Shown one piece after another: positions 1 through 9,773 of a stretch of 64,000 nucleotides of DNA. The notes under the pieces were generated by a model. That model made no database searches and had not been told where the DNA came from. It saw nothing but the letters and a program-made list of their open reading frames with translations. The stretch comes from Cryptosporangium aurantiacum (GTDB lineage Bacteria > Actinomycetota > Actinomycetes > Mycobacteriales > Cryptosporangiaceae): positions 62,001-126,000 of the forward strand of contig NZ_FRCS01000018.1 in assembly GCF_900143005.1 (NCBI RefSeq), written 5' to 3'. The translations under genes were made by a program, and so were the position numbers. How positions within the stretch are numbered: position 1 is the stretch's first letter; every line of letters starts with the position of its first letter.

Positions 1-110
1 GTAGTGCGGTGGTGGTCCGTGCGCTTCCGGCCGCGGCCGGTCAGTCCTCCGAGACCCTGGCCCGCGACCTGGACGGCGCGTTCCGACGCATCTTGAAGGC
101 CCGACGATGA
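1..110 (+). CDS. rnpA: Ribonuclease P protein component, C-terminal end (5' truncated)
   Basis: Only about the last 35 codons are in the window, read in the frame that starts at base 3. They end in a basic tail (RRILKARR) and a TGA at 108-110. RnpA is the protein cofactor of RNase P, which matures tRNA 5' ends. The assignment rests mainly on position: in actinobacteria rnpA directly precedes yidD and yidC. The stop overlaps the yidD start in an ATGA, so the two are probably translationally coupled. The visible tail alone is too short for a strong family call. Confidence 0.7.
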
Positions 111-505
111 GCATGGCACCGCACCGACCCGGGGACGTCTCCGACGAGACGGCCCCTGGCTCCGCTGCGACCGAGCTCACCGAGCCGACCGAACGGCCGG
201 CAGGCCGGATGTCTCGGCTGTTGCTCGCGGTACTGATCGCGCCGATCCAGTTCTATCGCCGGTGGATCAGCCCGGCATTGCCTCCGCGCTGTCGTTTCCA
301 CCCCAGCTGTAGCGCCTACGCGCTCGAGGCGCTGCGGACTCACGGCCCGGTGGCGGGGATCCTGCTGGCAGGCTGGCGCGTAATGCGCTGCCACCCGTTC
401 CACCCCGGCGGGTACGACCCGGTCCCCTCGGCGCGGCCCCGCTCCCGGTGGGTGACCCGCCTCCGTCGTGCTCGCAACCGCCGTCTGTCTGGAGCTACTC
501 GGTGA
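107..505 (+). CDS. yidD: Membrane protein insertion efficiency factor YidD
   Basis: A 132-residue protein of the YidD family, a small membrane-associated factor that assists YidC-dependent insertion. The family core starts near residue 35 (MSRLLLAV) and shows FYRRWISP, the Cys-rich [11 protein letters not shown] and [12 protein letters not shown]. The 34 residues before the core are acidic and Pro-rich. They are an actinobacterial-type extension or an artefact of choosing the ATG at 107; an in-frame ATG at 209 is the alternative. I keep 107 because it overlaps the rnpA stop. The 3' end overlaps the GTG of yidC by four bases. Confidence 0.9.
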
Positions 506-1605
506 ATCTGAACTGGATCTACACGGGAATCTCGTGGATCCTGCTGCGCTGGCACGACCTGTGGGGCGGCCTCCTCAACCTGCCGTCCGGCCTCGCCTGG
601 GTGCTCTCGATCGTCTTCCTCGTGCTGACCGTCCGGGTCGTGCTGTTCCCGGTCTTCGTCAAGCAGATCAAGTCGCAGCGAGCCATGCAGGCGCTCCAGC
701 CGCAGATGAAGGAACTGCGCGACAAGTACAAGAACGACCAGCAGAAGCTCCAGCAGGAAATGATGGAGCTGTACCGGCGGGAGAAGGCCAACCCGCTGAT
801 GGGCTGCCTCCCGATCTTCCTGCAGATCCCGGTCTTCCTCGGTCTGTTCCACGTGCTGCGGCTGATCAACCCGGCGTCGGAATCCGCGTTCAAGGCGATG
901 ACCACCGAGTACGGGTGGACCGAGGAGCAGTTCCACAGCGCCTCCGAAGCGACGATCTTCGGTGCCCCGATCGCGGCCGCGTTCCGGAACACCACCGAGC
1001 AGCTGGAGCAGCTCGACGCGAGCCGGCTGTCGGTCACGCTGGTCTCCGGGATCTTGATCATCACGATGGTCGCGACGACCTACATCACGCAGCGCCAGAT
1101 GATCGCGCGCAACGGTGCGGCGGCTGACCCGACGCAAGCGATGGTGCAGAAGCTGATGCTCTACGGCATCCCTGCCTCGCTGCTCATCTCGGGTGCGATC
1201 TTCCCGATCGGTGTTGTCATCTACTGGGTGACGCAGAACTTCTTCTCGATGGGTCAGCAGTTCTGGGTGCTCAGCAAGATGCCGATCCCGAAGCCCGGTG
1301 ACCCGAAGGTCGACCCGGAGAAGGCCGCCGCGATGGCGCCGAAGCCAGGCGTCAAGCCGGTCAACCCGAAGAAGGGCGGCCGCTCCGCGACCGCGCGGCA
1401 GTCCACCGGCGGCTCGGTCAAGTTCGACACCGCTCAGGCTCGGGCCGACCGTGCAGCGGCCGATAAGTCGAAGTCCGATGCCTCGGCCGACGACAACTCC
1501 GAGAAACCGGCGCCCGCGCGTCGACCGACTCCACCCCGCGGTAGCGGCGGCGGACGACGTCCGCAGGACAACCGGAACCGCAAGCGCAAGGGCGGCCGGC
1601 GTTAG
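502..1605 (+). CDS. yidC: Membrane protein insertase YidC (Oxa1 family)
   Basis: A 367-residue polytopic insertase that places Sec-dependent and Sec-independent proteins into the cytoplasmic membrane. The N-terminus ([19 protein letters not shown]) and the next hydrophobic helix, [14 protein letters not shown], carry the conserved Arg of the hydrophilic groove. A charged coiled coil ([20 protein letters not shown]) and [16 protein letters not shown] follow, as in the family. The last 80 residues are basic and disordered, as in Gram-positive homologues. The start is GTG 502 in a GTGA overlap with yidD; an upstream in-frame start at 448 would add non-conserved residues. Confidence 0.96.
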
Positions 1606-1665
1606 CCGGTCCTCCACGGATCATCGGTGCCCCGTCGCGGTGGCGCCGCAAGCCAGGGAGTATTG

Positions 1666-2169
1666 ATGACGGAGACGCGTCCCGAGACCGCGGACGAGAC
1701 GGGCACAGACCTGTTGGTTCGCGAGGGCGACATCGCCGGTGACTACATCGAGCGGCTGCTCGACATCCTCGACTTCGACGGGGACATCGACATGGACGTC
1801 GAGGGCGACCGGGCGGTCGTCGCGGTGATCGGTGATGAGCTCGACGCGCTGATCGGCCCGCGCGGCTCGACGCTCGACGCGCTGCAGGAGCTGACTCGTC
1901 TGGCGGTCGTCCAGCAGACCGGCGTGCGTAGTCGGCTGATGCTGGACGTCGGCGGTTACCGCGCCAAGCGTCGTCAGGAGCTCGTCGCGATCGCCAAGAA
2001 CGCGGTCGAGCAGGCGCGGTCGCTGGGTGAGCCGGTGAAGCTCAGCCCGATGAACCCGTTCGAGCGCAAGGTCGTGCACGACGCGATCAGCGCGATCGAC
2101 GACGTCCGGAGCGAGTCCGAGGGTGAAGAGCCGGAGCGTCGGGTGGTCGTCCACTTGCAGAGCGCATGA
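1666..2169 (+). CDS. jag: Jag/KhpB RNA-binding protein (KH + R3H)
   Basis: A 167-residue protein with an acidic N-terminus, a KH-II domain whose GxxG loop reads [14 protein letters not shown], and a C-terminal R3H domain with the Arg-x3-His signature in [11 protein letters not shown]. Homologues (Jag/EloR/KhpB) bind RNA and affect cell elongation and division. The ATG at 1666 has a well-placed GGGAG upstream. The gene lies 60 bp after yidC and its stop overlaps the rsmG ATG, so yidD-yidC-jag-rsmG looks like one transcription unit. Confidence 0.93.
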
Positions 2170-2930
2170 GCAGCACACTTCCTGCGAGCCCCGCCGGTCC
2201 GCCGGCGGGGCTCGCTGCTGTTGCGGCCCAGGTGTTCGGCGAGCGGCTACCGCTGGCGATCGACTACGCCTCCCTGCTGGCGACGGCGGGCGTCGAGCGC
2301 GGGTTGATCGGTCCGCGGGAGGCCCCGCGGCTGTGGGATCGTCACCTCCTCAACTGCGCCGTCGTGGCTGAGCTCTTTCCGGCGGACGCCACGGTGGTCG
2401 ACGTCGGGAGCGGCGCTGGGTTGCCCGGCCTCGTTCTGGCGATCGCGCGACCGGATCTGCGGGTGACGCTTCTGGAGCCGCTCGCCCGCCGGGTCGCGTT
2501 CTTGAACGAGGCGGTCTCCGCGCTGGAACTGTCGTCGGTGACCGTGCGCCGTGGGCGGGCGGAGGAGGTCGTGGGTCAGGTCTCCGCGGCCATCGTGACC
2601 GCGCGGGCGGTCGCGCCGCTGGACCGCCTCGCGGGGTGGTGCCTGCCGCTGTGTGAGCCTTCCGGGAAGATGCTCGCGCTGAAGGGGTCGTCGGCGGCCG
2701 AGGAGATCACCGAACACGCCGCCGCGGTAGCACGGGTTGGGGGCGTCTCCCCTCGTATCGTCGAGTGCGGAGGCGGTGTCGTCGACCCCCCGACGACCGT
2801 GGTCGAGATTCTCCGTGGTGGCTCGGTGGGCCCTGGCCCGGCGGCCGCGAGCCGTCGGGATTCGTCGCGGCGGCGGCCGGGTTCGGCTGCTCCGAGCCGC
2901 CGGCGACGGAGAGGACAACACGGCCCATGA
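2166..2930 (+). CDS. rsmG: 16S rRNA (guanine527-N7)-methyltransferase RsmG
   Basis: A SAM-dependent methyltransferase for the conserved 530 loop of 16S rRNA; loss of RsmG gives low-level streptomycin resistance in other bacteria. Visible motifs are WDRHLLNC near residue 58, the SAM-binding [13 protein letters not shown] near residue 82, and [15 protein letters not shown]. The body resembles GidB of about 220 residues. The last 35 residues are an Arg/Ser-rich tail ([10 protein letters not shown]) beyond the usual end. The start is an ATGA overlap with jag. The stop in turn overlaps an ATG (2927) that opens the long frame leading into parA. Confidence 0.95.
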
Positions 2931-3460
2931 CCGACGACGCATCTCGGAAGCCCACTGCCGTGGGATGGCCGGACTCGAAACCGGCCGGATCGGCGGTGGT
3001 CCACCTTCCGGGATGCGGGAGCTCGGACCTCGGCTGGCCCTCGCTCGACGAAAACCTCGGCTGGCTATCGCTCGACGGAAGCTTCGACGGAAGCTTCGAC
3101 GAAGGCGGTGACGATGGTGGGGCGCGCGGCCTCGTCCGGCGTCGTGGTCGACGCCACGCGCCGCGCCCGACCGAGCTGTCCCGGCGTCCGAGACGGCCGG
3201 GGAGTTCGGCCTCACCGCTGCGGCTGATCCGCGCGGTTTCGGTTCCTCCGGACGCCGCGGGGGCGGGCGGGCCCGTCGCTGGCGGCACTCTTGCGGAGAG
3301 CGGCGGAGTCTCGTTGAGTGCGGGCCACGAAGGTGATGAGGGCTTCGGGGGTGATCCGGGGGTCGAGCCTGCCGAGACGTCCACGCACCCGAGTCCGACG
3401 GCCGACGGTGATCCAGGCGGCGAGTCCGGGGGCGAGGTGGCGGCGGCGGCGCGCCAGCGC

Positions 3461-3663
3461 TCGGCAGTCGGCGGTGACTCGCGCGAGCGCCTGGCCGGTG
3501 GCGGCGATTGGGGCAGCGAGCCGGCGGTCGCGGCGGGCCGGCGCTCGGCAGTCGGCGGTGACTCGCGCGAGCGCCCGGCCGGTGGCGGCGATTGGGGCAG
3601 CGAGCCGGCGATCGCGGCGGGCCGGCGCTCGGCAGTCGGCGGTGACTGGCGCGAGCGCCCGGC
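3461..3663 (+). repeat. 84-bp tandem repeat, about 2.4 copies
   Basis: The motif TCGGCAGTCGGCGGTGACT recurs at 3461, 3545 and 3629, exactly 84 bp apart, with near-identical sequence between. In the parA frame each unit encodes 28 residues containing RSAVGGDSRERPAGGGDWGSE. The copies differ by a few substitutions only, so the duplication looks recent or is being homogenised. Confidence 0.9.
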
Positions 3664-3666
3664 CGG

Positions 3667-3765
3667 GGGCGGCGAGTCCGGTGGCGGCGAGTCCCGTGGC
3701 GGCGAGTCCGGGGGCGGCGAGTCCGGGGGCGGGGAGTCCGGAGGCGGAGAGTCCGGAGGCGGGGC
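3667..3765 (+). repeat. 15-bp GGCGAGTCCGGGGGC-type tandem repeat
   Basis: About six imperfect copies of GGCGAGTCCGGGGGC directly follow the 84-bp array. In the parA frame they encode a GGGES pentapeptide repeat. Variation falls mainly at third positions (GGC/GGG/GGA, GAG constant), as expected if the frame is translated. Slippage of short GC-rich units could give the same picture. Confidence 0.85.
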
Positions 3766-4492
3766 GCCCGGCGCTGGTGAGTCGGTGGACGAGGTCGCGG
3801 TCGGGGTCGACTCGGATGAGCTTTCGATCGGCGACGGTGCCCGCGTCGCTGGGCACGGTTCGTCGGTTCGGGCCGGCTTGGGCGAGCGCCCGGTCGGCGG
3901 GAGCGGTGTGGCGGTCGCGGGCGAACAGGCGGGTGGCGACGGCGGCTCTGTCGTGCGTCCCAGCGAGGGTGGGTTCCCGGGGGGCGCAAGGGATGGGCGT
4001 GGCCCGGGCGGCGGGTTGGATGCCGAGCAACCCGACGACTTCGCCGGTGTCGGTGGTGAGGCTCGGGAATGTACTGGGGCTGGGGATGGCAGTGACGTGG
4101 CTGGGCCTACTACTGCGGCTGGTTCCGGCGAGGAGGCGCGTCCCCGGCTCCGGGCGGTCGGACCGGACGAGGGGCTGAGCGTCGAGGACGGACGACTGGA
4201 GATCGTCGTATCGCCGACGCTCGACGATCTGCTCGGAACAACCCCCAGCGAGCGCCGCGTCGGCGAGTTGAGCGAAGGAATCAGTGACTCCTTGCGCGAT
4301 CTCATCCACAGAGTTGTCGGTCGGGCAGAGGTTAGTGACGTCGGGGCGGTACCGTCGGGAAGTGCCGGCGCAATCCTCGCCGAGGTCCCTCCCTTCGAGC
4401 GCGGCGCAGCGACTGCAGCGTCGGCGGACACCGCTGAACCCTTGGGGTCAGCTTCCCCCGAGTCCGGTACTGAACAGGTCCAGGAGATCGAC

Positions 4493-5560
4493 GTGAGCGA
4501 CCCCGCTCAGTCCGCCCCGCACGCGCTCACCAACGAAGCGGACGAGAGCCAGCGACGTATCCGTGCCGTGCTGGACGACGCCACCGCCGTTCCACGTGAA
4601 ACGGCTCCCGATCCGTACGAGGTTTCACGTGAAACGGATCCGCTGACGATGGATCCCCGGGTCCTCCCCGGCGATGTTTCACGTGAAACAGAGGACGACG
4701 ACCTGCCGATAGCGATCGAGGCTCGTCGCGCCGTCCAGGTGTTGAACCCCGGCCACAACACGCTGCCTCGCCCCGCCACCCGTCGCGTCATGTGCGTCGC
4801 GAACCAGAAGGGTGGCGTCGGCAAGACCACGACGACGGTCAACATCGCCGTGGCGCTCGCCCTTCACGGAAACCGGGTCATGGTGATCGACCTCGACCCC
4901 CAGGGCAACGCGTCCACGGGACTGAACGTCGACCACCGGGCCGGAGTCCCGAGCACCTACGACGTCCTCGTCGACGGCATCCCGCTCGCGGACGCGACCG
5001 TGGCCGTCGAGGGCGTGCCGAACCTCTACTGCGTGCCGGCGACGATCGACCTCGCCGGCGCGGAGATCGAGCTGGTCTCGGTGGTCGCCCGCGAGAACCG
5101 TCTCCGCCGGGCGATCGACGCCTTCCCGGCCGACATCGACTACATCTTCATCGACTGCCCGCCGTCTCTCGGTCTGCTGACCGTCAACGCGCTCGTCGCG
5201 GCACGAGAGGTACTCATCCCGATCCAGTGCGAGTACTACGCGCTGGAAGGGCTGGGGCAGCTCCTCCGGAACGTCGAACTCGTCAAGGCGCACCTCAACA
5301 ACGACGTCCAGATCACCACGATCCTGTTGACGATGTACGACGGTCGCACCAAGCTCGCCGATCAAGTCGCCGCAGAGGTGCGGGGACACTTCGGCGAGAC
5401 CGTGCTGGAGGCGGTCATCCCCCGGAGCGTCCGTGTCTCGGAGGCGCCCGGGTTCGGGCAATCGGTGATCACTTACGATCCTGGTTCGCGCGGATCCACG
5501 AGTTATCTTCAGGCTGCTCGGGAGATCGCGGAGCGCGGCGCTAGGGGAGGACACCAGTGA
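4493..5560 (+). CDS. parA: Chromosome partitioning ATPase ParA (Soj)
   Basis: A Walker-type ATPase of the ParA/Soj family that, with ParB and parS, segregates origins. From GTG 4493 it is 355 residues, a normal length for actinobacterial ParA. The deviant Walker A box [12 protein letters not shown] is near residue 105, followed by [11 protein letters not shown] and the Walker B stretch [11 protein letters not shown]. The start is chosen because AGGAG lies six bases upstream. The frame is also open back to ATG 2927, which would give 877 residues. The first 65 residues contain VPRET/VSRET motifs because three parS sites are embedded in the coding sequence. The stop overlaps the parB GTG. Confidence 0.93.
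4589..4602 (+). promoter_or_regulatory. parS site 1 (one mismatch)
   Basis: GTTCCACGTGAAAC differs from the parS core GTTTCACGTGAAAC by one base in the left half. It lies within the parA coding region and encodes VPRET. It is a likely ParB-binding centromere element. Confidence 0.85.
4622..4635 (+). promoter_or_regulatory. parS site 2 (perfect core)
   Basis: GTTTCACGTGAAAC is the exact palindromic parS core recognised by ParB in actinobacteria. It encodes VSRET in parA and lies 33 bp after site 1. Confidence 0.95.
4675..4690 (+). promoter_or_regulatory. parS site 3 (perfect 16-bp)
   Basis: TGTTTCACGTGAAACA is a perfect 16-bp parS palindrome, 54 bp after site 2 and again encoding VSRET. Three sites inside 102 bp make a strong ParB nucleation centre close to the expected origin. 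Confidence 0.96.
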
Positions 5561-6543
5561 AGAATCGACGCGGACTGGGGCGGGGCCTCGGTGCGCTGAT
5601 TCCGGCGGCACCGCTGCCGGGTGAAGAGGACGGCGGCGCTCCGGTCGTCGTCCAGCGGACGCCGTTCGCCACGGGCGCGTCGACCAATGGCGGCGGCCAG
5701 TCGGACCTGGCGCCGGTCCCCGGTGCCCAGTTCCGTGAAGTGCCGGTCGACGCGATCACGCCCAACCCCAAGCAGCCCCGTAAGGGAGAGTTCGACGAAG
5801 ACGCGATGGAGGAGCTCAAGACCTCCATCCGCGAGGTCGGTGTTCTCCAGCCGGTCGTGGTGCGGGAGAAGGGTGCCGGCAGCTACGAGCTGATCATGGG
5901 GGAGCGTCGCTGGCGCGCCTCGAAAGCGATCGGCCGCGAGACGATCCCCGCGATCATCCGCGACACCAGCGACGACAATCTCCTCCGGGACGCGCTGCTC
6001 GAGAACATCCATCGCTCCGACCTGAACCCGCTCGAAGAGGCGGCGGCTTACCAGCAGTTGCTCGCCGAGTTCGGCGTCACCCAGGAGGAGCTCAGCAAGC
6101 GCATCGGACGGAGCCGTCCGCAGATTTCCAACACGATCCGGCTGCTGAATCTCCCGTCGGCAGTGCAGCGCCGCGTCGCCGCCGGCGTGCTCAGCGCGGG
6201 TCATGCCCGGGCGCTGCTCTCGCTGGACGACAGCGACGCACAGGAGCGGCTGGCAACACGAATCGTCGCCGAAGGGCTCTCCGTGCGGGCCACCGAGGAG
6301 ATCGTCGCGCTCGGCGGCGACCCGGAGCCGCCGACGCGCGAGGCGCCGGCACGGCGTACCCGGATGCGGTCTCCCGGTCTGGAGGACTTGGCCGGGCGGC
6401 TGTCCGACCGGTTCGACACCCGGGTGAAGGTGGACCTGGGGAAGCGCAAGGGGCGCATCACGATCGAGTTCGCGACGATCGACGACCTGGAGCGCATCGC
6501 TGACGCGATGGGAGTCACCGGCCAGGTCGACGACCAGTCCTGA
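5557..6543 (+). CDS. parB: Chromosome partitioning protein ParB
   Basis: A 328-residue ParB/Spo0J CTPase-type DNA clamp that loads at parS and spreads. It begins [13 protein letters not shown], the short N-terminal motif that stimulates ParA. The ParB/Srx domain shows [17 protein letters not shown] and [14 protein letters not shown], followed by a helix-turn-helix ([20 protein letters not shown]). The C-terminal dimerisation region ends in a predicted helix (ERIADAMGV). The GTG start overlaps the parA stop in GTGA with GGGAGG upstream, so parA and parB are coupled. Confidence 0.97.
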
Positions 6544-6655
6544 CGCGCGGGTCGGTCACCGTCATCAGCCGGACGCGTAGCGAGGCGCCGCTGCTCCCTC
6601 GGCGGAACCGCGCATAGACGGTTGCCTGGCTCGCCGATTAACAGCGGCGGCCGAG

Positions 6656-6701
6656 GCGCTGAACATTTTGTGCCCCTCCAGGGGCACAAAATGTTCAGCG
6701 C
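6656..6701. repeat. 46-bp perfect palindrome (22-bp arms, 2-nt centre)
   Basis: The left arm 6656-6677 (GCGCTGAACATTTTGTGCCC and two more bases) and the right arm 6680-6701 are perfect reverse complements around CC. It starts 113 bp after the parB stop. As RNA it would form a very stable hairpin and could end parB transcription, but it has no U-tract. As DNA it could be a cruciform or a protein-binding site. No second copy was noticed in the window. Confidence 0.95.
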
Positions 6702-7187
6702 TATCGGGCGGAGCGGCGGAGGCCGCCCAGAGTGAGGCGTGGGCGTGGCCCAGGCGGAGCCCGGCGAGTCGTCAGGTTCATCAACGACGCGGCGAGCCAT
6801 CCCATCGCGATGGATCCTGGGCTACCGGTCAGGATCGAGCGCCGTACGCCGGTGACCTCTCCGATAGGACGCGGCGGTTGGCGGGTCAGAGGCTGCGGAC
6901 CGAAGAAGCTCGGCCGGTTGCCGAACTCGGCGACGCGCAGCCGCCGCCAGCGGCCTCCGCCGTGTTCGGCGCAGACCGCAGTAGCGCATTGGCTGGGGGC
7001 GGGCCGCTATGGCCGCGAGAGCCACGGGCGGCGCGAGGGGTTGGGTGGTGTGCGTGGGCCGCGGAGTCCCGGAGTGGGCGTGGAGCGCGAGGGCGGGCAC
7101 AGGGAAGCCGCGGGTGGCGTGCGGCGGAGCGGAGAGCCGCGCCGGGGCAGCAGCGGAGGCTGGGCGGCACGTGAGGGGTTGCGTGAC

Positions 7188-7314
7188 GCGAGGGCGGGGG
7201 CGCCACGAGGGCGGATGGTGCGCGCGGGCTGGGGTGGCGCGCGGGAGGTGGCGCGCGCGGGTGGGGCGGCGCGCGGGCTGGGGTGGCGCGAGGGCGGGGG
7301 CGCCACGAGGGCGG
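7188..7314 (+). repeat. Two copies of a 27-bp G-rich block, 100 bp apart
   Basis: The block starting GCGAGGGCGGGGGCGCCACG occurs at 7188-7214 and 7288-7314. A second block, CGCGCGGGCTGGGGTGGCGC, occurs at 7221 and 7270. Runs of three to five G on the plus strand from about 7000 to 7400 could form G-quadruplexes. The spacing is not a multiple of three, which argues against a coding repeat. Confidence 0.75.
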
Positions 7315-8081
7315 TGGTGCCACGAGGGCGGCGAGCGCGTGGGCCTGGGTAGCGCGGGGTGGGGCGGCGGGAGTGAGATGGGAGCTGCGGGGCAGGGGTC
7401 TGGCGGGATCGGCGGGGCGAAAATTCGGTGGGCCTTGGGAGGGGGCGTGGGGCAGGATCAGGCGCATGGGTGTGCCTCTCCCCCGCGTCCGTCGGCTCGG
7501 TGTGCGTTTGCTGCACGCTGCCCGACGACGTCGGTGAGCCGACGCTGAGGCCCGACGGGCCCGAAGAACCCACCCCGGCGGCGTGAGCCCGGATATGGAC
7601 CTGGTTATCTGATCCGAGCGGAGTCGCGCCGAGCGGACCGCCCGCCGGCTCCAGGTTGCCGGTGGGCGACCGGCAGAGAGGTGAGCGGAGATGCCCGACG
7701 AGCGGGCTGCGGCGTGGATCGAGAGACGGTGTCCGTTGGCGCTCCGCCTGCCCGGTGACCGCAGTCGTTCGGATTGCCTCCGACGACGACGATAGGTCCG
7801 TCCGGAATCGCTGAGCGCGGGCACGGCCGGGCACCCACCCGATGGGTCGCCGGGCGTCCACGTTTTGGGGCAGCGAAGCCCCGACCGTTCCAGAACAGCA
7901 CGGGCATCCGCAGCGTCAGCGTGGCGACCGGATACCCCCGGGCGGCGGCCGGGCGCGCGGAAGGCAGGAACTGGCGAGTCCCGCCCAAGACTGGGCGTGG
8001 CGAGCGGACCGCGTCGTCGTTGGATCGAACGGCACGACGCCCGATCAAGCACCACGTTAGAGAACCAAGCCTGGAGAGATC

Positions 8082-8774
8082 GTGCACCACGAAGAAGGTC
8101 AGCCGGATACTGGAACCGAGCCGAGGGTGGTGGTGAACCCACCGTTGACCGAGGAGCTCCGTGCGCACCTCGTCGACATGTGGGTCCGTGTCACCAACGA
8201 AGGCGGCTCGGTCGGATTCGTGCCACCGGTGACGGGCGACGACATCCGACCGACTGCGGATCGTTCGTTCGACCGCGTCCGGCAGGGCTCCGACGTGTTG
8301 ATCTGTCTCGTCGCACCGGATCGTGAAAAAAATCGCGAATCAGTCCGAAACGGGGCAGGCTTCCCTTCCACGGAGAGCGCCCAGAATGACATCCCTGTAG
8401 TCCCCGGTACCGATTCGGACAATCGTCTGTCTACGGGCCTCTCAGGGCCGCTAACGGGCGAGCGCGTTGTAGCGTGGTTGCTGCTCGCCGAAAGTGAGAG
8501 TCTTCTGCGTCGCCACTGGCGAACCGTGTACCGGGTGCAGGTCGATCCGGAGTGGCAGGGGCTCGGACTCGGCACCTCGTTGATGGCGGCGGCGGCGGCC
8601 TATGCCAAGGAGGCTCTGGGACTCGAGGCGCTGACGCTCATGACGCGCAGCGGCACCGGGGCCGAGCGGTTCTACAAGCGGTGCGGCTATCGAGAGGTCG
8701 GTCGGATCCCCGGCGCGATCCGCGTCGGCCCGAACGACGACCGAGACGAACTCCACTTCTGGCTAGACCTCTAA
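8082..8774 (+). CDS. GNAT-family N-acetyltransferase with an internal insertion
   Basis: A 230-residue GCN5-related acetyltransferase that should move an acetyl group from acetyl-CoA to an amine; the substrate is unknown. The acetyl-CoA-binding motif A is clear (VDPEWQGLGLGTSLMAAAAAYA, split here as VDPEWQGLGLG and SLMAAAAAYA), followed by GAERFYKRCGYREVGRIPG. Residues about 80-128 form a polar, relatively AT-rich stretch between the expected beta strands that looks like an insertion. The GTG start has GGAGAG four bases upstream. It stands alone and converges on ddl. Confidence 0.85.
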   Translation: MHHEEGQPDTGTEPRVVVNPPLTEELRAHLVDMWVRVTNEGGSVGFVPPVTGDDIRPTADRSFDRVRQGSDVLICLVAPDREKNRESVRNGAGFPSTESAQNDIPVVPGTDSDNRLSTGLSGPLTGERVVAWLLLAESESLLRRHWRTVYRVQVDPEWQGLGLGTSLMAAAAAYAKEALGLEALTLMTRSGTGAERFYKRCGYREVGRIPGAIRVGPNDDRDELHFWLDL

Positions 8775-8803
8775 GTGCTCAGCGGGCTCCAGGCCAGAAC
8801 AAG

Positions 8804-8817
8804 AGCCCCGCGCGGGG
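8804..8817. terminator. Short GC hairpin between convergent genes
   Basis: GCCCCGCGCGGGGG can form a 6-7 bp stem between the GNAT stop (8774) and the ddl stop (8826). It is small and has no T-run, so a role as a bidirectional terminator is tentative. Confidence 0.35.
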
Positions 8818-8825
8818 GCCTTCGA

Positions 8826-9773
8826 CTAACTCGAGCGTTTGATGGCCTGCTCTACGAGATCGGCAAGGACCGTGCCGAAGTCGAGGCCGGCCGCCTGCAC
8901 GGCGATCGGCAGCAGGCTGGTCTCGGTCAGCCCTGGCGACACGTTGACTTCCAGCACCTGGATGTCCCCCGCCTCGTCGACGAGCAGGTCGACCCGCGAC
9001 AGGTCACGCAGCTCCAGGGCATCGTGTGCCGCGACCGCGGTCTCGGCGACCCGCTCTGCGATCTCCGGGTCGAGTCGGGCCGGTGCGTGCCACGTCGTCG
9101 TGCCTGCCGTGTACCGGGCCGTGTAGTCGTAGACGCCGTCCGCCGGAACGATCTCCACCGCGGGCAGCGCCGCCGGCCCCAGCGCAGACTCCACGACGCT
9201 CACCGCGATGTCCGCACCGCTGGCGAACCGCTCGATCAATGCGGTGTCGCAGTAGCCGAAGCACCCCACCATCGCGCTGGGCAGCTCCTCGACCGTGCGC
9301 ACGGCCTGCGCCCCCAGCCCGGAGCCACCTTCGGCCGGCTTCACCATCAGCGGCATGCCCAGCCGCTCGACGATCCGGTCGAGCAGTGCCTGCGCACCCA
9401 ACTCGCGGAACGTCTCGTGGGGCAGCGCGATCCAGTCCGGCGTCGGCAGCCCGACGGCGCGCAGCTGAGCCTTCGCCGCAGCCTTGTCCCAGGCGACCCG
9501 AGCCGGATCCGCGCCGGCGCCGACGTACGGGATGCCGAGGAGGTCCAGCACGCCCCGGAGTGACCCGTCCTCGCCGCTGGCGCCGTGCAGCGCGATGAAC
9601 ACCGCGTCCGGCCGCTCGGTCTCCAGCGCGGTCAGCAGGCCGGCGTCGACGTCGCGAACGGTGGCGTCGACGCCGCTGCGCCGCAGCGCATCGACGACGC
9701 GGCGGCCCGAGCGCAGCGAGACCTCGCGCTCGTAGGACAGGCCACCGGCCAGGACGAGGACGTGCCTACTCAT
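8826..9773 (-). CDS. ddl: D-alanine--D-alanine ligase (ATP-grasp)
   Basis: A 315-residue ATP-grasp ligase that makes the D-Ala-D-Ala dipeptide of peptidoglycan precursors. The N-terminal ligase domain has VLAGGLSYEREVSLRSG and the substrate-contacting ALHGASGEDGSLRG. The ATP-grasp part has PLMVKPAEGGSGLG, and metal ligands lie in QVLEVNVSPGLTETS near the C-terminus. The ATG at 9773 overlaps the aminotransferase stop (ATGA), implying co-transcription. Sequence outside the motifs is diverged from DdlA/DdlB, so a related dipeptide ligase role is possible. Confidence 0.88.
   Translation of the reverse strand: MSRHVLVLAGGLSYEREVSLRSGRRVVDALRRSGVDATVRDVDAGLLTALETERPDAVFIALHGASGEDGSLRGVLDLLGIPYVGAGADPARVAWDKAAAKAQLRAVGLPTPDWIALPHETFRELGAQALLDRIVERLGMPLMVKPAEGGSGLGAQAVRTVEELPSAMVGCFGYCDTALIERFASGADIAVSVVESALGPAALPAVEIVPADGVYDYTARYTAGTTTWHAPARLDPEIAERVAETAVAAHDALELRDLSRVDLLVDEAGDIQVLEVNVSPGLTETSLLPIAVQAAGLDFGTVLADLVEQAIKRSS

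Follow-up and report, generated by a model that had tools for sequence, protein, structure and literature searches.

A candidate 522-residue N-terminal arm with a twin GWP head on the chromosomal ParA of Cryptosporangium aurantiacum

The parA gene of Cryptosporangium aurantiacum appears to encode a long partition ATPase whose reading frame begins within the stop codon region of rsmG. With a probability of roughly 0.75, we favor an overall explanation made of four elements: a disordered arm on a long ParA, a twin head, a repeat-built spacer, and a second start. According to this explanation, the long ParA would start at the ATG that overlaps the stop of rsmG, with translational coupling to that gene as the probable route, and would run from its N-terminus through a twin [LVI]GWP head and a fast-evolving, repeat-built spacer into the ParA ATPase, with an AGGAG-GTG pair at 4493 as the second start that gives a short ParA. 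The head would be a short linear motif that docks on a protein partner of the pole, the membrane or the nucleoid, with the spacer acting as a flexible tether of variable length. Anchoring would be confined to the long ParA, and the long and short forms would have the same ATPase core. These parts differ in strength. Translation of the arm as part of ParA is very likely from sequence comparison, and the production of two isoforms, long and short, is the better bet. The chances that the head is a docking motif are about even, and a tether role for the spacer is somewhat doubtful.

The window, the whole 64,000-nucleotide stretch analyzed here, lies within a 9.58-Mb genome (G000) and has the gene order rsmG, parA, and a parB-like gene (Table 1). 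A deviant Walker A motif, QKGGVGKTT, is found at 4805, and residues 620-796 of the long form match AAA_31 (PF13614) with an E value of 5.1e-57. Judged by the Walker A motif, the AAA_31 match and the parB and parS neighbors, the product is most likely a chromosomal Soj-type ParA. We take the next gene to be parB, from its ParB-like N-terminal sequence and from its place after parA. Just past it, positions 6658-6699 form a perfect inverted repeat with 20-base arms, a 2-base loop and no T-run, which occurs once in G000 and in none of the three congeners.

Table 1. Features of the rsmG-parA-parB region (positions in the window).
Feature	Position	Strand	Basis or remark
rsmG (gidB)	2166..2930	+	ORF list; SAM-binding motif
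Proposed long-ParA start, ATG	2927..2929	+	ATGA overlap with rsmG stop
Probable long-ParA N-terminal arm, 522 codons	2927..4492	+	Open frame, composition, pLDDT
First head motif VGWP, residues 12-15	2960..2971	+	Third-position changes in congeners are synonymous
Second head motif LGWP, residues 35-38	3029..3040	+	Synonymous changes in congeners
Third copy LGWL, residues 44-47	3056..3067	+	G000 only among four genomes
84-bp tandem repeat, 2.9 copies	3432..3675	+	Tandem Repeats Finder
15-bp tandem repeat, 6.7 copies, GGGES-type	3663..3762	+	Tandem Repeats Finder
Conserved post-repeat block (..EGLSVEDGRLEIV..LDDLLG..)	4163..4288	+	Protein-level selection
Block with suppressed synonymous change, probable promoter/RBS overlapping coding frame	4289..4492	+	
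Internal Shine-Dalgarno AGGAG	4482..4486	+	In 4/4 congeners and sister-genus G004
Putative short ParA, GTG start, 355 aa; shared C-terminal part of long ParA	4493..5560	+	
parS-like site 1, one mismatch	4589..4602	+	Reads VPRET in frame
parS-like site 2	4622..4635	+	Reads VSRET in frame
parS-like site 3	4676..4689	+	Reads VSRET in frame
parB (presumed)	5557..6543	+	ORF list; directly downstream of parA

The TGA of rsmG at 2928-2930 is overlapped by the ATG at 2927, from which 877 codons run uninterrupted as far as the parA stop, whose last base is 5560; GTG 4493 lies exactly 522 codons in. The frame is already stop-free from 2657, within rsmG. A sequence-only reading of the window had described both this 522-codon open frame and its moderate third-position GC, and both descriptions held on re-reading (GC3 is 0.76 in the arm vs 0.83 in parA). 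In the ParA frame the arm is rich in Gly, Ala, Ser, Glu, Arg and Asp. The two other sense frames across 2927-4492 contain 5 and 17 stops. On the antisense strand, one frame of the same stretch is stop-free in G000 (521 codons) and two are in the congener G003, so the openness of the frame is by itself no evidence, and we dropped it as proof of translation. A search of positions 1-9000 against Rfam matched no RNA element, residues 1-522 of ParA gave no match in Pfam, and no sigma-70 consensus promoter was found across 2800-4600; actinobacterial promoters often depart from the consensus.

Structure prediction points to an intrinsically disordered arm. In the AlphaFold2 model made with relatives, almost every one of residues 1-591 has a pLDDT below 50, and values in the ATPase part are mostly 76-94, with some dips; a single short helix is placed in the arm, at 454-463. 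The head of a Nonomuraea ParA (residues 1-92) was also modeled as unstructured, and the alignments behind the two models were small, at 18 and 28 rows. The head would seem to be a short linear motif borne by a flexible arm. A folded N-terminal helix-turn-helix DNA-binding domain of the plasmid ParA type was sought and did not appear, either as a Pfam match in residues 1-522 or in the model, where the arm is unstructured. Docking of the head onto the ParA core was not seen in the monomer models.

Comparison of G000 with three congeners (G001, G002 and G003) gives evidence for translation. The ATG overlapping the rsmG stop is kept in 4/4 genomes of the genus and the arm frame is intact in three of them, being open from that ATG for 509 and 539 codons in G002 and G003, respectively. 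In G001, an 18-bp array holds 2 additional bases near codon 497, which leaves the head and the ATPase in different frames, and the first frame, read from the ATG, meets its own TGA after 646 codons; the insertion may be genuine or may be an error of sequencing. Frameshifts in close relatives, which the sequence-only reading had named as evidence against its proposal, are therefore present in one of the three congeners, with G002 and G003 intact. The first ~40 arm codons have a dN/dS of 0.28, and the first 20 have 0.18 in frame vs 1.32 and 1.14 when the frame is shifted. The conserved block behind the repeats has a dN/dS of 0.19 (G000, G001 and G002); a stretch resembling it in G003 sits earlier, ahead of the main repeats. 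Reference values are 0.04 for the ParA core and 0.16 for rsmG. The sequences flanking the repeats evolve as protein. The ortholog comparison of frame and dN/dS proposed with the original claim supports translation well, with the start kept throughout and the flanks at 0.19-0.28.

Tandem Repeats Finder gave periods of 12, 84, 15, 30 and 45 for the G000 arm, every one divisible by 3, in keeping with the earlier observation that the 84- and 15-bp units preserve the frame. Across the four genus genomes the periods are multiples of 3, a point in favor of our explanation, the sole exception being a 2.1-copy 10-bp row in G003; indels are present inside some rows, and the repeats are not alike between species. 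A preference for third-position substitutions, claimed from the sequence for the 15-bp units, is seen in that array (1, 0 and 6 mismatches at codon positions 1, 2 and 3) and is missing from the 84-bp array (3, 5 and 2). Pooled over 13 arrays from the four genomes, the counts are 28, 42 and 50, a bias too weak for us to retain it as evidence.

The AGGAG-GTG pair within the frame is present in 5/5 genomes of the family (the four congeners and the sister genus, G004). An excellent internal Shine-Dalgarno sequence had been cited against the long protein; it is there, and it is additionally conserved in the congeners and G004. The calculated products are a long ParA of 877 aa and 88.7 kDa and a short ParA of 355 aa and 38.1 kDa. 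In the 14 codons before the GTG (4451-4492), pS is 0.000 and pN 0.031 among the four congeners, and the SLRDLIH..AEP part of the 4289-4492 block has a pS of 0.213 and a dN/dS of 0.69. Within the same block, 24 bases (4295-4318) are identical across the four congeners and enclose a DnaA-box-like TCATCCACA at 4302-4310, inside the coding frame. The block is constrained as DNA and not as protein, which would fit a promoter and ribosome-binding site serving an internal start. Since the internal SD-GTG is conserved at the DNA level, two ParA products are favored.

Class-wide, strong-SD in-frame starts are not enriched (17/228 in frame vs 0/9 and 15/260 in the other frames), which makes the internal start a local feature, unsupported as a rule for the class; at Streptosporangiaceae-type loci, GTG codons after AAGGA recur. 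This lack of enrichment would suit a cell that makes only the 877-residue ParA, with the SD-GTG idle and the DNA conservation reflecting some other element close to the origin, such as one related to DnaA or ParB. The conserved head and arm, the DnaA-box-like 9-mer and the three parS-like sites downstream (4589-4689) are compatible with this idea as well. It is nonetheless unlikely, given that the constraint is centered on a well-spaced Shine-Dalgarno and start codon in four congeners and a sister genus. Moreover, should the G001 sequence be right, ParA of that genome would have to start further downstream.

The sequence-only picture of the arm overlooked the twin GWP head at its N-terminus. 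For a survey, we collected 64 loci from the order, 40 further loci from the order, 40 from the class and 80 named loci (the best 80 of a longer list), 224 in total and 219 after deduplication; the order and class loci were fetched from 104/145 matching genomes of the order and 40/141 outside it. At every locus rsmG was placed by its SAM-binding motif, and the 192 loci with rsmG 60-4500 bases upstream were eligible, leaving 27 out of the counts. We define the twin-head group as loci where [LVIA]GW[PFLV] occurs twice between rsmG and the Walker motif, in frame with ParA; G000 belongs to it through residues 12-15 and 35-38. Such a pair occurs in the ParA frame at 39/192 loci and in the other frames at 2 and 0, one of the two being the frame-shifted G001. 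Codon shuffles produced it in 10/9600 cases, that is, at ~0.2 loci expected vs the 39 seen.

Twin heads are found in 18/37 coded families, plus named genera: Nonomuraea (L271, L286), Microtetraspora (L264), Streptosporangium (L279) and Dactylosporangium (L246), as well as the MAGs L245, L248 and L280. A second Dactylosporangium locus, L243, has SGWP and VGWP and falls outside the strict count. The first motif starts at residue 4-19 in 36/39 loci (31, 41 and 98 in the rest), the motifs are 13-29 residues apart in 36/39 (47 in three), and 24/39 loci start by the 4-base rsmG overlap (-4 offset). Roughly half of the sampled families are without a head; it was not found in the sampled Streptomyces, Micromonospora and Amycolatopsis loci, in several coded families, or in G004. 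A second short hydrophobic block lies between the GWP motifs in G062, L243 and L246 (LRLTSGFLVF, LLRRVDGFLVF), and the PLRLIR that follows the head in the window and in G002 faintly resembles it. In a ParA tree of 120 rows, 34 scored as head-bearing by a slightly wider motif, at least 19 changes are needed; the tree is poorly resolved (18/113 inner branches well supported), and heads occur in both main clades. Because of the latter, the twin head looks, from these sequences, ancestral in actinobacterial ParA and repeatedly lost. The literature searched yielded no paper joining LGWP to ParA, some queries being swamped by 'para' words, and no description of the conserved head.

The survey bears on a rival view, in which the cell makes only the short ParA, from GTG 4493, and the sequence upstream of it is a leader that holds an internal promoter, goes untranslated and owes its open frame to high GC and in-phase repeats. 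The strong, conserved SD-GTG would fit, initiation at 4493 would by itself account for the DNA-level conservation of 4289-4492, one congener is frame-shifted, and the antisense frames are just as open. We regard this as improbable. It leaves unexplained the frame-specific, protein-level selection on both sides of the repeats and the occurrence of the head in the ParA frame at one-fifth of the class loci surveyed; moreover, some twin-head loci, with the head 45-150 codons from the Walker motif, gave no well-placed internal start by our SD criterion. The parS-like sites point the same way: at twin-head loci 48/48 read VSRET in the ParA frame, a reading also found at far-upstream sites of G004 (two) and G042. 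The full set of 192 loci gives VSRET 256 times, FHVK 55 times and a stop-containing reading 11 times. We use this as supporting evidence only, since FHVK is open too and many of the sites lie in certain parA coding sequence. That the head is a separate protein unfused to ParA, as the G001 sequence with its own TGA would yield, has next to no chance: the three other congeners have no stop between head and ATPase, and outside the genus, at 36 twin-head loci, the second motif shares the frame of the Walker motif and precedes it by 45-261 codons.

We also looked for other head proteins. A genus-wide twin-motif pattern gave 11 rows in the four genomes, three of them the parA head (the G003 parA head does not match the codons of the pattern); the remaining rows look like background, since the reversed control also yields 8 matches. 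On reading the frames, none of four candidates was convincing: L309 has no open frame of at least 60 residues bearing GWP, L311 has GC-rich frames with scattered GWP, and L312 and L313 carry LGWP repeats on frames of 93 and 219 residues opposite frames of 185 and 812. The 812-residue frame on the minus strand of L313 (G003:C31) encodes a P-loop ATPase (NPKGGAGKT), perhaps secretion-associated, behind a long Pro/Gln/Gly-rich stretch, which makes it the second ParA-like ATPase of the genus with a long arm of low complexity. As for a general partner of the head, bactofilin fits badly, with 1/79 genomes.

Contrary to the sequence-only reading, long arms are not limited to this genus; rsmG-overlapping starts and long N-termini recur in other lineages. 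A first contig scan with the linker as the query had found no relatives. In G004, 1155 in-frame codons, rich in Pro, Ala and Ser, separate the start from the Walker motif, and in G042 LGWP and LGWG each occur once in a stretch of 521 codons. Among the best 80 named loci, 5/5 from Actinoplanes/Paractinoplanes, genera of sporangium-forming habit, have in-frame arms of 350-767 codons. These arms (L237-L240, L242) begin with MARRGARKR or similar at an ATG right behind the rsmG stop, and the strict twin GWP head was not found at their N-termini. In L260 and other Streptomyces loci, a conserved, putatively coding MFHVKRRSLL..-type stretch lies in the ParA frame ~140 codons before the Walker motif, and the parS-like site there reads FHVK.

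A translated 877-residue ParA, the core of the original claim, thus gains from the start, the frame, the codon selection and the class-wide head; what it must now share is the locus, a short form being likely too. The G001 shift, the headless G004, the DNA-level conservation of 4289-4492 and the open antisense frames all count against our overall explanation, as do the class-wide lack of enrichment of internal starts, the many sampled families without a head and the poor fit of bactofilin as a partner. A broader scheme, to which we give a little less than an even chance, has a class-ancestral docking ParA whose twin head is translated from a start at the rsmG stop and binds a conserved partner, repeat-expanded tethers here and in Actinoplanes, and an untethered short form in this family. 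If the proposal is right, ParA here would be a length-tunable, two-isoform partition motor, its repeat-built arm would amount to a naturally occurring set of different tether lengths on a single motor, and ParA starts, hence constructs, may be set too far downstream in many genera. Among actinobacteria, the anchoring of ParA at a pole or hyphal tip is understood in a few genera, with differing partners; a head in 18/37 of the coded families sampled would point to an older common docking mechanism.

Three known systems invite comparison. In mycobacteria, according to the available text of a 2008 paper, the parA start overlaps the gidB stop and the ParA N-terminus is unusually long (PMC2346475), both shared with the locus described here. 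The available part of a second source reports that the N-terminal region is necessary to bind the polar protein DivIVA and that its 20 N-terminal residues are insufficient to transfer binding (PMC9298525). The mycobacterial N-terminus is far shorter than the 522-residue arm, and the twin GWP was not found at the sampled loci of family f8, which we infer to be Mycobacteriaceae. DivIVA mutant work is reportedly due to Pioro (2019). Streptomyces ParA is likewise actinobacterial and chromosomal and is recruited by the polar scaffold Scy; an N-terminal docking motif is not mentioned in the portion of that source at hand (PMC3718342), and the sampled Streptomyces loci are without the twin head.

The third system is IncC of plasmid RK2 (IncC1/IncC2), a ParA ATPase that has a disordered extension at its N-terminus and a short form from a second in-frame start. 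The accessible text of two papers reports that both forms are made (PMC8481139) and that the N-terminus modulates oligomerization and DNA binding (PMC2666795). Low pLDDT and composition predict an IncC-type disordered extension for the arm, and a two-start pattern may hold as well: ATG 2927 and GTG 4493 are both conserved, with DNA-level constraint at the second. In contrast, IncC is a plasmid ParA with a 105-residue extension, and a GWP head goes unmentioned in the same portions of those papers (PMC8481139, PMC2666795); here the ParA is chromosomal, the arm is repeat-built and 522 residues long, and the two products are putative. A different chromosome-segregation motor, with a lineage-specific disordered arm that binds protein and lipid, is a functional analogy only. 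A ParA with a disordered N-terminal arm is known already; this one would be extreme in length, its conserved head was not found described in the literature searched, and a length-tunable motor of two isoforms would be unlike the chromosomal ParAs reported there.
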